64,000 nt of DNA, taken from contig NZ_CP128360.1 in assembly GCF_030345095.1 (NCBI RefSeq), positions 5,890,001 through 5,954,000 on the forward strand. The letters run 5' to 3'. Under the pieces are notes generated by a model that saw only the letters and a program-made list of their open reading frames with translations, searched no databases and was not told the DNA's origin. Origin of the DNA: Solwaraspora sp. WMMA2056. Its GTDB lineage: Bacteria; Actinomycetota; Actinomycetes; Mycobacteriales; Micromonosporaceae. This document shows, piece by piece, positions 558-5,836 of the stretch (its first letter is position 1; each line of letters begins with the position of its first letter). Made by a program: the position numbers and the translations under genes.

Positions 558-3014
558 GTGCACGACGAGACCCCGCATCCGCACCCGACCGCCGGCGGCC
601 TGCGCCTGGTGCGGCGCGACGCGCGGGTGACCGGCGACGTCAGCTGGATGGAACTCTTCGTCGACGTACTCTTCGTCTTCGCCTTCCTCGAGATCACCAG
701 CCTGATGGCGGCCGACACCGCACTCCTCGGCACCATCCGGGGCATCCTGGTCGTCCTGCTGCTGTGGCACTGCTGGACCGCCTGCGTCTGGCTCGGCAAC
801 GTCGTGCACGTCGACCGTGGTGGGGTGCCACCGATGATGGCCGGGATCGCCGCCGTACTGCTGATCGTCGCGGTCGCGGTCCCCGAGTCGTTCGTCGACC
901 GGCCTGGCAGCCTGGCTGGTCCGCTGGTCGTGGTGCTCGGCTACCTCGCGGTCCGGACCAGCGTCCTGGCGATCCTCACCCGGTCGCGCTGGCACGAAGG
1001 CCCACCCGGCCGGCGGCCGGCGGCCATCGCCTGGGCGACCCTCGCCGCCTCGGCGCCGGTGCTGCTCACCGCCGCGCTGCTGCCGCGGTGGCTGATGGAC
1101 CTGCTGCCGGCGGCGATCGACCCGGAACTGGCGCGGATCGGGCTGTTCGCGACCGCGCTCGCCATGGACTTCATGATCCTGGCAGCCGTCGGACGGGGCA
1201 GCTGGCAGATGGTCTCGCCGTGGCACCTCGCCGAACGGCACGCCCTGGTGGTCCTGGTCGCCCTCGGCGAGACGATCATCTCGATCGGCACCGGTGGCGG
1301 GCCGGGCACGGCGATCCCGGTCACCTGGTCGTTGATCGCCGCCGCCGGGCTGGGGATGTTGATCGTCACCCTGCTGTGGTGGAGCTACTTCGACCTCGCC
1401 AAGATCCTCGCCGAGCACGCCCTGGCCCGCCTGTCCGTCGTCGACCAGACCCGGATGGCCCGGGACGCCTACAGCGGGATGCACCTGCCGATGATCGCCG
1501 GGTTGATCGTGCTGGCGCTCGGCCTCAAGCAGGCGGTCGCCGCGACCTCCGGAGCCTCCGGCGCGGCATGGGGGCCGACGCACGTCCTGATCGTCTACGG
1601 CGGGGTACTGATCTACCTCGCCGCCCTCGTCGGCTTCGAATGGCGGACCGGTCGGCTGTTCGGTCGCAGCCCACTGCTCGGCATCGGGCTGCTGCTCTGT
1701 CTGCTCCCCCTGGCCACCCGGCTGTCGGTGCTGGGTGCCCTGGCCCTGCTGGCCGCCGGCCTCGTCGCGATGATCCTCGCCGACCGCACCGTGTTCCACA
1801 GCCGGCACACCCAACTGCACCACATGGTCGAGTCCGGGGCGTCCCGGCTGCACGGCGTGGTCCCCCGGGAACTCTTCCTCGACCTGGTCTTCGTCTTCGC
1901 GTTCCTCCAGGTCACCGTGTTGATGACCCGGCAGACCTCGGGGTGGGGCATCGTCCGGGGGCTCACCCTGCTCGCGATGCTGTGGTGGGCCTGGACGTCG
2001 TACTCCTGGCTGGCCAACGCGGTGCGCACCGAGACCACCCTGGTCCGGTTGAGCACCGTCGGGATGGCCACGGCGGTCCTGCTGATCGGGATCGCCGCCC
2101 CGCAGGCGTTCGACCCGGCCGCCGGCGGCCTGCCCGGACTGCTGATCATCGTGTTCTGCTATCTCGCCGGCCAGGTGATGCAGGCCATCCTGTTGTGGCA
2201 GGCGTCGCAGACCGATCCGACGCTGCGCGACCTGGGCCGGCAGGCCGCCGTACCGTCCAGCGTCGCACTGCTGCTGCTCGCCGGCTACGCCGTCGTGGAG
2301 CTGGCGACGCCGGGCCCTGTCGCGGGAACGCCCGCCGTCACCGTGCTGTGGGTCGCGGCGATCACCGTCCAGTTCGTCGGCAGCTACCCCACCGGGGTCC
2401 ACAGCTGGCGGCCCCGCTCCACCCGGCACTGGGTCGACCGGTACGCGCTGATCACGTTGATCGCGTTCGGCCAGGCGGTGATCTCAGTCGGTCTGGCGGT
2501 CGGCGAGCGCTCGATCTCGGGCGGCGTGATCCTGGTCGCCGGGATCGCCGCAGTCATCCTGGTCCTGCTCTGGTGGTCCTACTTCCCTACCATCGACTCG
2601 GCCCGGCTGGCCCTGGAGGCCAGGACCGGCGTCGACCGGGCGAAACTCGCCCGAGACGCCTTCACCTACCTGCATCTGCCGATGATCGCCGGCATCATCA
2701 TGGTCGCGTACGGCCTGCACCAGATCGTCGGCGACCACGACGACACCGCGATCCGGTACGGGCACTACGCCATCTACTGGGGGGCGGCGTTCTACCTGCT
2801 GATCAACCAGGTGTACTGGTGGCGGCTCTGGCGCGTCGTGAGCTGGTACCGGGTGGTGAGCGCCGCCGCCGTCGTACCGCTGGCGGTGCCGACCGCGTGG
2901 CTGTCCCCGTTCTGGGCGCTGACGACCCTCACCGCGTTCGGCCTGGCGTCGGCGACGGTCGAGTTCGTTCGCCTGGGCGATCCGCGGACCCGCCAGCCCG
3001 AATTCGTCGGCTGA
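558..3014 (+). CDS. Low temperature requirement protein A (LtrA), tandem-duplicated
   Basis: This is an 818-residue polytopic membrane protein made of two LtrA-type repeats. The first begins near residue 30 with MELFVDVLFVFAFLEITSLM. The second begins near residue 430 with RELFLDLVFVFAFLQVTVLM. Each half is followed by matching segments such as LLWWSYFD (about 273) and LLWWSYFP (about 673), and YSGMHLPMIAG / FTYLHLPMIAG, so the protein is an internal duplication. LtrA is named after a Listeria locus needed for growth in the cold; its biochemical activity is unknown. The start is GTG at 558 with only a weak Shine-Dalgarno; the first membrane segment begins soon after, so the start cannot be far off. 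It is a single gene with no evident operon partner. Confidence 0.85.
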   Translation: MHDETPHPHPTAGGLRLVRRDARVTGDVSWMELFVDVLFVFAFLEITSLMAADTALLGTIRGILVVLLLWHCWTACVWLGNVVHVDRGGVPPMMAGIAAVLLIVAVAVPESFVDRPGSLAGPLVVVLGYLAVRTSVLAILTRSRWHEGPPGRRPAAIAWATLAASAPVLLTAALLPRWLMDLLPAAIDPELARIGLFATALAMDFMILAAVGRGSWQMVSPWHLAERHALVVLVALGETIISIGTGGGPGTAIPVTWSLIAAAGLGMLIVTLLWWSYFDLAKILAEHALARLSVVDQTRMARDAYSGMHLPMIAGLIVLALGLKQAVAATSGASGAAWGPTHVLIVYGGVLIYLAALVGFEWRTGRLFGRSPLLGIGLLLCLLPLATRLSVLGALALLAAGLVAMILADRTVFHSRHTQLHHMVESGASRLHGVVPRELFLDLVFVFAFLQVTVLMTRQTSGWGIVRGLTLLAMLWWAWTSYSWLANAVRTETTLVRLSTVGMATAVLLIGIAAPQAFDPAAGGLPGLLIIVFCYLAGQVMQAILLWQASQTDPTLRDLGRQAAVPSSVALLLLAGYAVVELATPGPVAGTPAVTVLWVAAITVQFVGSYPTGVHSWRPRSTRHWVDRYALITLIAFGQAVISVGLAVGERSISGGVILVAGIAAVILVLLWWSYFPTIDSARLALEARTGVDRAKLARDAFTYLHLPMIAGIIMVAYGLHQIVGDHDDTAIRYGHYAIYWGAAFYLLINQVYWWRLWRVVSWYRVVSAAAVVPLAVPTAWLSPFWALTTLTAFGLASATVEFVRLGDPRTRQPEFVG

Positions 3015-3090: not shown

Positions 3091-3122
3091 TTGACCTTGG
3101 AGTGCACTCCAAGGTCTACCGT
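3091..3122 (+). promoter_or_regulatory. MerR-type promoter/operator
   Basis: A -35 TTGACC (3091-3096) and -10 TACCGT (3117-3122) are separated by 20 bp, the overlong spacer typical of MerR-controlled promoters. The spacer is occupied by a perfect 22-bp palindrome (3094-3115), with half-site ACCTTGGAGTG. The -10 ends 7 nt before the ATG at 3130, so the transcript is probably leaderless. The palindrome should be the binding site of the MerR protein encoded immediately downstream, implying autoregulation by DNA untwisting. Confidence 0.88.
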
Positions 3123-3129
3123 CGTCGAC

Positions 3130-3558
3130 ATGGGCACCTATCCCGGTACCGGGATGCGGGTCGCCGAACTGGCCGCGGCGGCCGGGGTGGCACCGGACAC
3201 CATCCGCTACTACGAGCGGGCCGGGCTGCTGCCACCCGCGCCCCGGTCAGCCGCCGGCTACCGACGCTACGGCGCGGACGCGCTCGACCGGCTGCGGTTC
3301 ATCCAGGGCTGCCAGCGGCTCGGGCTGCGGCTCCGGGAGATCGCCGACCTGCTCGCCGTCCGGGACACCGGGGTCTGCCCGTGTGAACCGGCCGAGCAGT
3401 TGCTGCGCCGTCGGATGGCCGAGGTCGACGCGGAACTGGCCCGGCTGACCGCGCTACGGGCCGAGATGGCGGCGATGGCCGCCGCCCTGCCGGCGGCCGG
3501 CTGCCCGCCGCCGGAGCCGGGCCGGTGGTGCCCACCGGACGACCAGGAGAGGAGGTGA
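3130..3558 (+). CDS. MerR-family heavy-metal-responsive regulator
   Basis: This is a 142-residue transcription factor. It has an N-terminal winged helix (RVAELAAAAGVAPDTIRYYE, then an RSAAGYRRY wing), a dimerisation helix, and C-terminal metal-binding cysteines in the CPCEPAEQLL motif near residue 82, in AAGCPPP and in RWCPP. This layout matches the MerR/ZntR/CadR metal-sensor branch, where the first Cys at the head of the dimer helix and the C-terminal Cys ligate Hg, Zn, Cd or Pb. The metal is not decidable here. The ATG at 3130 is chosen over upstream in-frame codons because it is about 7 nt from the -10 of the palindromic promoter. The stop codon lies 2 nt before the start of a tiny Cys-rich ORF. 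No metal efflux pump is adjacent, which is unusual for this family. Confidence 0.9.
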   Translation: MGTYPGTGMRVAELAAAAGVAPDTIRYYERAGLLPPAPRSAAGYRRYGADALDRLRFIQGCQRLGLRLREIADLLAVRDTGVCPCEPAEQLLRRRMAEVDAELARLTALRAEMAAMAAALPAAGCPPPEPGRWCPPDDQERR

Positions 3559-3560
3559 CG

Positions 3561-3626
3561 ATGATGTTGGAGCCGACCACGCGCTGCGCGTGCGAGCCGG
3601 ACTGCTGCGGTCCGGACTGCTGCTGA
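3561..3626 (+). CDS. 21-residue cysteine-rich peptide, MerR-coupled
   Basis: This short ORF starts ATG ATG and encodes 21 residues, six of them Cys, all in the last 13 positions: Cys-X-Cys, then two Cys-Cys pairs separated by Gly-Pro-Asp, ending in Cys-Cys. A strong Shine-Dalgarno (GAGAGGAGG, 3547-3555) sits in the last codons of the merR gene, 5 nt before the first ATG; a GTG at 3555 is also in frame and would overlap the MerR stop. Coupling to a metal-sensing MerR and the density of thiols suggest a metal-binding, metallothionein-like or metal-chaperone micropeptide. This is inference; I do not recognise a named family. It is too short for standard gene callers, so it will usually be missing from annotation. 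Confidence 0.6.
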   Translation: MMLEPTTRCACEPDCCGPDCC

Positions 3627-3640
3627 CGCCGCAGGCCACA

Positions 3641-3673
3641 GTGGGTGCCGCCGAGCGCGCCGGCGACACCCAC
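3641..3673. terminator. Bidirectional hairpin between merR and cellulase genes
   Basis: The 7-bp outer stem GTGGGTG/CACCCAC (3641-3647, 3667-3673), one mismatch, and a 5-bp inner stem (3649-3653, 3661-3665) close a 7-nt loop. It lies between two convergent genes, so it can serve both. There is no U-tract. Confidence 0.6.
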
Positions 3674-3688
3674 CATGAACCGTACGGG

Positions 3689-5836
3689 CTATCCGACGGT
3701 GCCGGTCACCGATGAGCCGCTACGGCGCACCGTGTAGGTGACCGTCGCCCCGCTCCAGAAGTGGAAGGTGAGCGTGACCGGGGCGTTGTCGTTGACCTCG
3801 GCGAAGAAGGTCGAGGTCAACGAGATGTTGTTGGCGCTGTAGTTCGGCGCGAACGTGACGTCGAACTCCTTGTACGACGTCCAGTTGTGCGGGCCGGCGT
3901 TGGATCCGTCGGCGTACCGCGCCTCCATCGTGGCCAACTGATCGCCGTTGAAGGCGGTCGGGATGCTGAACGCCGATGTGGTGCCGGTCGCGTTCTGCAG
4001 CACCGGCCGGTCGTTCGAGAGGATGTCGATCCGCCAGGGGACGCCGGCGGAGAAGTGCGCGTGCAGGGTCGCGTTCACCCCGTACGCCCGGTTGCCGACC
4101 AGCCGGGTCAGCGCCGCCGCGGTCAATGTCAGCTGGTTGCCGCTGACCGTGTAGTCGGTCCCCTGTACCAGGTTGGTGCTGCCCTGGCGCAGCGACTGGA
4201 AGTTCAGCCCGTTGAGGTTGAGCGTCAGGCTCTTCGCCGTGACGGCGCCGGTACGCGGTACGAAGACCATGTCGCTGGCGGCGGTGCCCGACCGGGTGGT
4301 CCAGGCGGACTTGATCTGGGCGATCAGCTCCGGATCGCTCCACTGGAAGCTGGTGCGGCCCAGGTGCTGACCGTTGTCCCAGAGCTGGGTGGCGATGTTG
4401 CGGGTCCGGGTGTGGTAGCCGAAGAACTCGAAGAACTTGAGTTTCTCACCCTGTTGGATGGTGCCGGTGTGCCGGTCGAAGCCGAGCAGTCCGAACTCGC
4501 CGATGACGACCGGGATGCCCCGGGAGACGAAGGTGTTCTGCACCCGGTTGAGCGAGTCGATCACGTCCTGCTGGGCGGTGGCGTCGAAGCGGTACCCGCC
4601 GGCGACGTTCACGCTGAACGGCCAGTACCCGTAGTAGTGCACGGTGGCGATCAGGTTGCGGTCGCCCAGCGCGGTGAAGGTGCTGGCCAGCTCGTCCAGC
4701 CGGGCCTGGTCCGACGAGGTGTGCAGGGTCGGCAGGATGAGCAGCCGGGTGGCGTTGTTGCCGCCGGAGCCTCGGACGATCCGGTGGAACGTCCGGTTCA
4801 GCTCGTCCAGCAGTTGGGCGTTCTGGGCGTCCCCGGAGCTGTTGGCGAACTGCGGCTCGTTGACGCTTTCGAAGTGCAGTTTGGGGGACGAGTCCCGGAA
4901 CGTGGTGGCCAGCTGGGTCCACAGTGCCGAGTAGCGGGCGAGTACGGTGCTGCGGTTGCTCGGCATCGTGTGGATCCACTGCCACGAGTCGTGGTGCAGG
5001 TTGATCATCACGTACAGGTCCTCGGCGAGCGCCCAGTCGACGACCTGCTTGACCCGGGCCAGCCGGGTGGCGTCGATCGTGTAGTTGGGGGCGGCACCAT
5101 GGTGGTGGGTCCAGGTCGTCGGGATCCGGATGCTCTTGAATCCCTGAGCCTTGATGTTGCGGATCAGCGCCTGGGTGACCAGCGGGTTGCCCCAGGACGT
5201 CTCGCCGCTGCCGGCGAGGTTGTCACCGGTGGCGTCCAGCGTGTTGCCGAGGTTCCAGCCGGGCTGCATGTCGTTGACGACCGCCTGCGGGTCGCCCGGT
5301 GGACGGGGGGTGACGGTCGGGGTCGGTGACGGCGGCGCGGTGGTGGGCGGTGCCGTGGTGGGTGGTGCGGTGGTGGGTGGCGGTGGGGTCGTCGGGCCGA
5401 CGCTGCCGGTGCAGGTGACCCCGTTGAGAGCGAACGAGGTCGGCGCGGTGTTGCTGCCGGTCCAGGAACCGTTGAAACCGAACGAGACGGTCGCGTTGGT
5501 GCCGAGGTTGGCGTTGTAGCTGACGTTGGTGGCGGTGACCTGGCTGCCGGAACTGGTGACGGTGGCGTTCCACGCCTGGGTCACCTGCTGGCCGGCCGGG
5601 AAGGTCCAGGTCAGCCGCCAGCCGTTGATCGGGTCGCCGAGGTTGGTGACGGCCACGTTGGCGGTGAAGCCGCCGGGCCACTGCGACGGTGCCGAGTACA
5701 CCACGCGGCAGCCGGTCGCCGCGTGGGCGCTGGCCGCGATAGCGATGCTGCCGCCGACCAGTGCCGCGGTCACGCCGCCGGCCACCAGGCCGGCGCGCCA
5801 CCGCCTGCCGCGCGCCGTCGTTGCTTGTCGATTCAT
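3689..5836 (-). CDS. Secreted multidomain GH5 endoglucanase (CBM2-GH5-CBM_X2-CBM46)
   Basis: This is a 715-residue exported cellulase. Residues 1-39 are a signal peptide (RGRRWR, hydrophobic core, AHA cleavage). Residues 40-143 are a CBM2 cellulose-binding module bracketed by Cys43 and Cys142. Residues 145-182 are a Pro/Thr linker. Residues 186-500 are the GH5 catalytic domain, with acid/base Glu327 in FESVNEPQF and nucleophile Glu447 in IPVVIGEFGL. The C-terminal ~200 residues resemble the CBM_X2 Ig-like module plus a terminal CBM46 that accompany GH5 subfamily 4 enzymes, which cleave beta-1,4-glucan and xyloglucan. The ATG at 5836 has a GAGGAG Shine-Dalgarno (5841-5846 on the complement). 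The gene stands alone, convergent with merR. I see no CebR-type operator upstream; an inverted repeat at 5956-5987 is the candidate regulatory site. Confidence 0.92.
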   Translation of the reverse strand: MNRQATTARGRRWRAGLVAGGVTAALVGGSIAIAASAHAATGCRVVYSAPSQWPGGFTANVAVTNLGDPINGWRLTWTFPAGQQVTQAWNATVTSSGSQVTATNVSYNANLGTNATVSFGFNGSWTGSNTAPTSFALNGVTCTGSVGPTTPPPPTTAPPTTAPPTTAPPSPTPTVTPRPPGDPQAVVNDMQPGWNLGNTLDATGDNLAGSGETSWGNPLVTQALIRNIKAQGFKSIRIPTTWTHHHGAAPNYTIDATRLARVKQVVDWALAEDLYVMINLHHDSWQWIHTMPSNRSTVLARYSALWTQLATTFRDSSPKLHFESVNEPQFANSSGDAQNAQLLDELNRTFHRIVRGSGGNNATRLLILPTLHTSSDQARLDELASTFTALGDRNLIATVHYYGYWPFSVNVAGGYRFDATAQQDVIDSLNRVQNTFVSRGIPVVIGEFGLLGFDRHTGTIQQGEKLKFFEFFGYHTRTRNIATQLWDNGQHLGRTSFQWSDPELIAQIKSAWTTRSGTAASDMVFVPRTGAVTAKSLTLNLNGLNFQSLRQGSTNLVQGTDYTVSGNQLTLTAAALTRLVGNRAYGVNATLHAHFSAGVPWRIDILSNDRPVLQNATGTTSAFSIPTAFNGDQLATMEARYADGSNAGPHNWTSYKEFDVTFAPNYSANNISLTSTFFAEVNDNAPVTLTFHFWSGATVTYTVRRSGSSVTGTVG

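Follow-up and report, generated by a model that had tools for sequence, protein, structure and literature searches.

Within a 64,000-nt stretch of the genome of Solwaraspora sp. WMMA2056 (hereafter the window, G000:C1:5890001-5954000; the host genome is a single contig of 7.01 Mb), we describe a two-gene unit that encodes a metal-type MerR regulator and, directly behind it, a cysteine-rich peptide of 20 or 21 residues. We consider it likely that the two genes form an autoregulated soft-metal sensor with a minimal metallothionein-like peptide as its effector, i.e. a self-inducing unit of two genes. Since the pairing of merR with such a peptide is seen again in many related bacteria, it probably represents a very small self-controlling device for mopping up metal. 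MerR metal sensors are known mainly for the control of efflux pumps and detoxification genes; the conserved partner of MerR described here is a peptide below the ordinary length for annotation.

Organization of the merR-peptide unit

The unit comprises the following elements (window coordinates):

3091..3096, plus strand: -35 box TTGACC of the merR promoter (read from the sequence)
3093..3116, no strand: MerR operator, a 24-bp perfect palindrome GACCTTGGAGTGCACTCCAAGGTC (from the sequence and its match to the ZntR consensus)
3097-3116, inside the palindrome: promoter spacer of 20 bp (sequence)
3117..3122, plus strand: -10 box TACCGT (sequence)
3130..3558, plus strand: merR, metal-type MerR regulator of 142 residues (Pfam, PDB kin, alignment)
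3550..3558, plus strand: Shine-Dalgarno sequence AGGAGGTGA of the mini-ORF; it overlaps the stop codon of merR
3561..3626, plus strand: mini-ORF for the six-cysteine peptide MMLEPTTRCACEPDCCGPDCC, with an alternative start ATG at 3564-3566 (20 residues)

A preliminary description of this DNA had recognized a MerR-type promoter, a MerR with metal-site cysteines, a Shine-Dalgarno (SD) sequence within the end of merR, and a 21-codon open reading frame (ORF) with six cysteines in CxC, CC, CC spacing, and had noted that no pump is adjacent. These elements and their positions were all confirmed, with the refinement that the peptide may start one codon later. The six cysteines lie within the last 13 residues. 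The mini-ORF has two in-frame ATGs, at 3561 (21 residues) and at 3564 (20 residues). Only the second is present in the four intact copies from the genus, and it may therefore be the true start, which would give a peptide of 20 residues. Both ATGs are present in the altered copy of a fifth relative, G003, described below.

Conservation of the merR-peptide pairing

A search of the genus found merR in 5/7 genomes, and a search for relatives yielded 159 loci, of which 80 were kept: 37 actinobacterial loci as the test set and 43 others as controls. The resulting first set of 42 orthologous loci includes five from one genus and several from Glycomyces, and the loci are not independent. A small ORF directly after merR, which the preliminary description had proposed to look for in relatives, is present and cysteine-rich in all 42. 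Its start lies at most 20 nt ahead of the merR end and at most 8 nt past it, and it is preceded by the full 6/6 SD core at 41 of the loci, L025 lacking this core by the same measure. Under equal limits, none of 50 other MerR loci (the 43 controls and seven MerR paralogs of the host genome) had a cysteine mini-ORF with an SD match of at least 5/6, and shuffled sequences produced one in 24 of 8400 cases (157 of 8400 with any SD). Cysteine mini-ORFs were likewise absent from nine non-orthologous actinobacterial MerR loci (L123, L124, and L148-L154). Thus, the pairing of merR with the cysteine mini-ORF is confirmed as real rather than a product of chance.

The 42 loci encode 41 unique peptides of 11-29 residues with 4-10 cysteines each; MDDCCTACDCC is an example with 11 residues. 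Cysteine makes up 34.1% of their residues, aspartate plus glutamate 22.6%, and phenylalanine plus tyrosine 0.4%; the CC motif occurs in 39 and CxC in 32 of them. The peptides thereby share the features by which metallothioneins are recognized, i.e. very small size, abundance of cysteines in CC and CxC motifs, and scarcity of aromatic residues. The window peptide and three others matched no metallothionein or other family in Pfam and NCBIfam, such short queries having low power. As a separate observation, L048 (Gaiellaceae) has a second short ORF, ending in GSCGCGCGCAAK, at about 88-177 nt past the merR stop codon, after the first cysteine mini-ORF.

Among 11 close pairs of loci, which share sequences between pairs, include one identical pair and are not independent, a change was seen in 3 of 71 cysteine columns, as against 21 of 153 columns of other residues. 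All three changed cysteine columns belong to L034/L037, where the spacing of cysteines differs. In the 30 nt beyond the mini-ORF, 132 of 330 positions differ (ungapped). The lower rate of change in the cysteine columns indicates that the cysteines are held while the remaining residues drift.

Promoter and operator

The promoter search across the 42 loci required TTGA, let the spacer vary from 18 to 23 bp, and accepted a start codon 4-12 nt past the -10 box. Promoters were recognized at 38 loci, and at every one of these the spacer is 20 bp long and contains the palindrome, in agreement with the rule for the MerR family, a palindrome within a promoter spacer of 19 or 20 bp, as given in excerpts of PMC1526738. 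At the four other loci, the promoter lies further upstream (L011, L012), the boxes are present with no ATG or GTG at the permitted distance (L025), or none was found (L035). The start codon follows the -10 box by 6 nt at 19 loci, by 7 nt at 18 (the window merR, with its ATG at 3130, has this distance) and by 8 nt at one. Such spacing implies transcription from the start codon or next to it, which makes a leaderless merR and a self-driven operon probable.

The window operator agrees with the published ZntR consensus (excerpts of PMC1526738) at 16 of 22 positions, a level reached by 0.11% of random palindromes. When the operator pattern was searched with up to three mismatches in the seven genomes of the genus, it was found only at the merR promoter, once per genome, in five genomes; the exact palindrome core was likewise found only at the merR promoter, in three of the seven, and weaker sites may exist elsewhere. 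In G003, of the same genus, no operator was found by this pattern search, merR is disrupted by a deletion and by shifts of the reading frame, and the mini-ORF has its first cysteine replaced and its stop codon lost. The changes in this one genome look like joint decay of merR and the mini-ORF.

The MerR sensor

The regulator has the N-terminal helix-turn-helix and the DNA-binding and dimerization region expected of the family: it matches PF13411 (69.2 bits, cut-off 21.6), PF09278 (61.3, cut-off 25.4), and PF00376 (57.3, cut-off 28.2), which include MerR_1 and MerR-DNA-bind. Its kin in PDB by single sequence are Tn501 MerR (E 6e-17) and CadR (E 1e-16), and by profile Bacillus MerR (4ua1), CadR, and Tn501 MerR, SoxR being much weaker. 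The named NCBIfam equivalogs for MerR(Hg), ZntR, CadR/PbrR, and CueR were all missed, with 90.5, 85.4, 80.2, 79.9, and 70.7 bits against cut-offs of 150.85, 143, 167.95, 151.45, and 147.4, respectively.

Four cysteine codons begin at 3376, 3382, 3502, and 3529, corresponding to C83, C85, C125, and C134; C83 and C85 are invariant across 37 aligned rows (alignment A1). The metal ligands of Tn501 MerR are Cys82, Cys117, and Cys126 according to excerpts of PMC5027573. C85 aligns with Cys82, and C83 is extra to this ligand set; the spacing C125-x8-C134 equals that of Cys117-Cys126, although the alignments end before those two residues. A CPC or CAC motif is found in all 70 peptide-linked MerR rows of the tree described below, and the C-terminal C...W-C pair with standard spacing in 61, the other nine lacking the pair or the spacing. 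These features suggest that the signal is likely a soft metal. The Zn/Cd/Pb class is most likely, Hg and Cu(I) being further candidates; metal identity is unsure because the regulator misses the named cut-offs and a pump encoded beside a related MerR (on plasmid pFRL4, see below) passes a copper model.

Distribution of the unit and probable exchange of the effector

At the family level, 24 of 121 genomes match merR at E 1e-30, in 25 places, 22 of which have the mini-ORF as scored by a script; the other three are L121, with a premature merR stop and a cysteine ORF behind it nevertheless, and L123 and L124, which are other MerRs. At the class level, 6 of 394 genomes match at E 1e-42. At the phylum level, 55 of 396 genomes match at E 1e-28 in 81 places; the locus was read at 30 of these, seven being other MerRs, and the remaining 51 (E 1.7e-39 or worse) stand outside the count. 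The script had missed L141, where inspection by eye shows a cysteine ORF with a TTG start about 65 nt downstream, and three fusions.

The orthologs form a clade of 79 rows with support 96/94 on a tree built from a short alignment (146 columns), in which many forks stay open. The tree left out repeat rows (L101, L102, L104, L105, L107-L109, L114-L116, L170, L172, and L173) as well as L113 (the merR frame ends early, with a cysteine ORF 32 nt behind), L121 (premature stop), and L154. The peptide is found in 70 of the 79 rows, in 67 as a free peptide and in three as an in-frame fusion (L126 in G182, L138 in G255, and L144 in G223). In the fusions, which need three changes on the tree, the merR stop codon is lost and MerR acquires an in-frame cysteine-rich tail, and an internal ATG after a purine-rich stretch is retained. 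The outcome that would have spoken against the preliminary description, relatives that keep merR and lose the small ORF or its cysteines, is thus confined to nine of the 79 rows.

These nine rows comprise (i) three with a longer cysteine-rich protein, (ii) two with a thioredoxin-like protein, (iii) two with a P-type ATPase, and (iv) two with no such gene. The longer proteins, directly after merR in L140, L142, and L147, have 63-98 residues as scanned and CGCG/CECC motifs; none matched a family above cut-off, and they are possibly metallothioneins of a larger type. The thioredoxin-like proteins of L131 (G145) and L146 (G287), both deep-branching orthologs, carry CPVC and further cysteines in the peptide slot; the L131 protein, which alone was scanned, matches Thioredoxin_3 with 30.5 bits (cut-off 24.8).

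Plasmids carry both types of arrangement. The Rhodococcus plasmid pGA1, typed as conjugative, bears the whole merR-peptide unit with a peptide of 19 residues, which has no entry in the incomplete gene table of the plasmid, and by eye a hairpin behind it. No cysteine mini-ORF accompanies the MerRs of Streptomyces pFRL4 and M. abscessus pGD22-1; there the palindrome, as read by eye and once more within a 20-bp spacer, is directed toward a P-type ATPase. The pFRL4 ATPase matches the heavy-metal model TIGR01525 (560 bits, cut-off 346), the cadmium model TIGR01512 (453, cut-off 313.5), and the copper model TIGR01511 (416, cut-off 397). The last MerR cysteine is replaced (TWR) in both plasmids, as it is in the peptide-linked L028 and L168. 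Both MerRs are nested within the peptide-linked clade, at a 99/96 fork of 13 rows (11 with a peptide and two with a pump), which suggests an effector swap in which the pump replaced the peptide. The presence of a pump in place of the peptide suggests in turn that the two have a similar task, namely to lower the level of free metal. These nested MerRs, set beside their peptide-linked relatives, are a ready-made case for studying how a regulator changes its effector.

Genomic surroundings

The unit lies between a gene of the LtrA family and a convergent GH5 cellulase gene:

558-3014, plus strand: LtrA-family gene, upstream neighbor of the merR unit
3641..3673, plus strand: GC-rich hairpin, candidate terminator of the two-gene transcript (weak evidence, from folding)
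3689-5836, minus strand: GH5 cellulase gene, convergent downstream neighbor (profile match)

The 60 nt beyond the window mini-ORF fold with -26.0 kcal/mol, with a z-score of only -1.5 against shuffles, and no T run was seen behind the hairpin. Hairpins of the type CCGCCGAGCGCGCCGGCG were noticed by eye behind the module in the window and in L013, L015, L018, and L027, which belong to several genera.

As judged by a crude gene caller, the next gene downstream is convergent in 28 of the 42 loci and co-directional in 12, and lies within 100 nt in four. No cluster of shared neighbors around the 37 test-set loci extends to more than six of them, the largest reflecting mostly Glycomyces synteny; smaller clusters, among them the Actinophytocola oxidoreductase and the ars-like or aquaporin-like frames described below, comprise 3-4 loci each, too few to name the sensed metal. 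The preliminary interpretation of the unit as an autonomous two-gene module gains support from this lack of constant neighbors, from the frequent convergent downstream gene, and from the single operator found per genus genome.

Several other features of the surroundings were observed. The LtrA-family membrane protein has two stretches matching PF06772, an apparent tandem duplication inside one protein of 818 residues. In L029, L036, and L050 (Actinophytocola), an FAD-oxidoreductase-like protein with a GGECPYYACVPTK motif, which we take to be of the mercuric reductase/lipoamide dehydrogenase type, is encoded upstream of merR and divergently from it. Frames named by eye as ars-like or aquaporin-like lie near L020, L027, and L033.

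Proposed mechanism and alternative explanations

In the proposed mechanism, MerR would occupy its own promoter, bound to the palindrome within the overly long spacer, and, once metal-bound, would activate a short transcript beginning at or near the merR start codon. The peptide would be translated behind its consensus SD, presumably in excess of MerR, and its thiolates would chelate the metal, so that the free pool falls and MerR switches off. The result would be a closed loop of metal buffering, independent of any pump, that could protect the cell from the sensed metal.

Several observations weigh against such a sensor-chelator unit. Six cysteines could suffice for only one or two divalent ions. 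The codon changes in the 11 close pairs are 24 non-synonymous and 19 synonymous, an excess that leaves no purifying selection visible over the whole mini-ORF and implies little constraint on the non-cysteine codons, and no change between TGC and TGT was seen among these pairs. In G003, read-on past the lost stop adds one cysteine and keeps the cysteine number, so that decay there is an interpretation. Hairpins beyond the mini-ORF are uneven, with z below -2 in 19 of 42 loci. MerR stays under every named NCBIfam cut-off, and the models matched by the related pump include copper. Finally, nothing peptide-like follows merR in L132, and L133 has, by eye, a short ORF with three cysteines; together with the thioredoxin-like partners in L131 and L146, these loci make a redox role possible.

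Such a role is the basis of one alternative, a thiol-redox device in which the CPC motif of MerR would detect oxidants or electrophiles, with the peptide as a sacrificial thiol. We regard it as improbable: the CPVC proteins in the peptide slot of two deep-branching orthologs speak for it, whereas the closest structures are Bacillus MerR, CadR, and Tn501 MerR, with SoxR much weaker, the operator resembles that of ZntR as excerpted in PMC1526738, and the alternative effector is a heavy-metal ATPase. The main rival, unlikely in our judgement, makes the peptide a dedicated partner of MerR, a metallochaperone or anti-activator that would deliver or strip metal and tune the switch instead of chelating in bulk. 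The three fusions to the MerR C-terminus are in keeping with it, as is the finding that the genus showed no operator besides the one in front of the peptide's own operon. A docking partner would, however, be expected to conserve more than its cysteines, and hardly any other residue is conserved; the lack of a peptide beside the pump-linked MerRs suggests an effector role, and the internal ATG of the fused genes means that free peptide may still be made.

The two remaining explanations concern the mini-ORF as a regulatory or untranslated element, and we give very little credence to either. Polycysteine short ORFs of mycobacteria, reportedly described by Canestrari in 2020, are said to act in cysteine-responsive attenuation, with a leaderless short ORF ahead of the controlled operon. 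The mini-ORF is likewise short, cysteine-rich, and actinobacterial; it nevertheless follows merR with no regular gene behind it, the neighbor being convergent in the window and in most loci, and its nearly universal SD contrasts with a leaderless start. An attenuator is disfavored by both gene order and SD. Conserved TGC-rich DNA or RNA would, for its part, account for the predominance of TGC (256 TGC and 19 TGT among the 275 cysteine codons of the 41 unique mini-ORFs) and for the lack of TGC-TGT changes. Against this stand a reading frame that is preserved from the SD and start codon through to the stop codon at many different peptide lengths, the use of three stop codons (35 TGA, 3 TAG, and 3 TAA), the occurrence of TGT, and the in-frame fusions.

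Having weighed these alternatives, we favor the sensor with a chelating peptide. A broader proposal, for and against which we find the case about equally balanced, is that MerR in many Actinomycetota has as its sole effector a member of a large and so far overlooked family of genetically encoded peptides, which can be as short as 11 residues, and that one promoter, one sensor, and one chelating peptide with negative feedback by metal removal would be the smallest self-contained metal homeostat known. Its effector slot would be exchangeable between a mini-peptide, a longer cysteine protein, a thioredoxin-like protein, and a P-type ATPase, and the chelator would sometimes be fused to the sensor. 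If the peptide binds metal, metallothioneins would extend down to 11 residues, a chelator alone could be the whole metal response, and the unit would provide a very compact natural sensor-chelator cassette for laboratory study.

Comparison with known systems

The nearest known systems are SmtB-SmtA and CadR-Zrd. In cyanobacteria, the gene of the metal sensor SmtB, a repressor of the ArsR type, stands beside the metallothionein gene under its control, whose product SmtA is folded and, at about 56 residues, larger than the peptides described here. The adjacency of sensor and metallothionein genes is common to both systems; the unit described here differs in its MerR-type regulator, its one self-driven promoter, and its peptides of 11-29 residues in the first set. 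Mycobacterial MymT and a fungal copper metallothionein of 25 residues are also small cysteine-rich metal-binding proteins, with no MerR operon known for either, and the shortest peptides found here (11 residues) are shorter.

In Pseudomonas aeruginosa, the MerR-family Zn/Cd sensor CadR induces Zrd, a small cysteine-rich protein, formerly only predicted, for which metal sequestration is proposed (excerpts of PMC12301328, where SmtA is mentioned as well). The likeness lies in a MerR-family sensor combined with a small cysteine-rich protein. In the present case, by contrast with what those excerpts relate, the peptide is encoded behind merR within a shared operon and is without a family match, and the search of the genus yielded no further operator. 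With ZntR-zntA the unit shares a MerR-type sensor, a palindrome in a 20-bp spacer, and the 16 of 22 operator positions; according to the excerpts of PMC1526738, the ZntR effector is a pump and zntR is not autoregulated, and the MerR described here falls below the ZntR cut-offs. The MerR-ATPase divergons of pFRL4 and pGD22-1 have a MerR nested in the same clade and the same type of palindrome; they differ in an operator that by eye faces the ATPase, in the absence of a cysteine mini-ORF, and in the replaced last MerR cysteine.

A sensor with a metallothionein is thus a known kind of system, and a MerR-type sensor driving a small cysteine-rich protein has already been reported (CadR-Zrd, 2025). 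No description of a merR-peptide operon was among the matches listed in a full-text literature search of open-licence papers. As far as we have seen, the new features are the merR-peptide operon, the shortness of its effector, its breadth in Actinomycetota, and the exchange of the effector.
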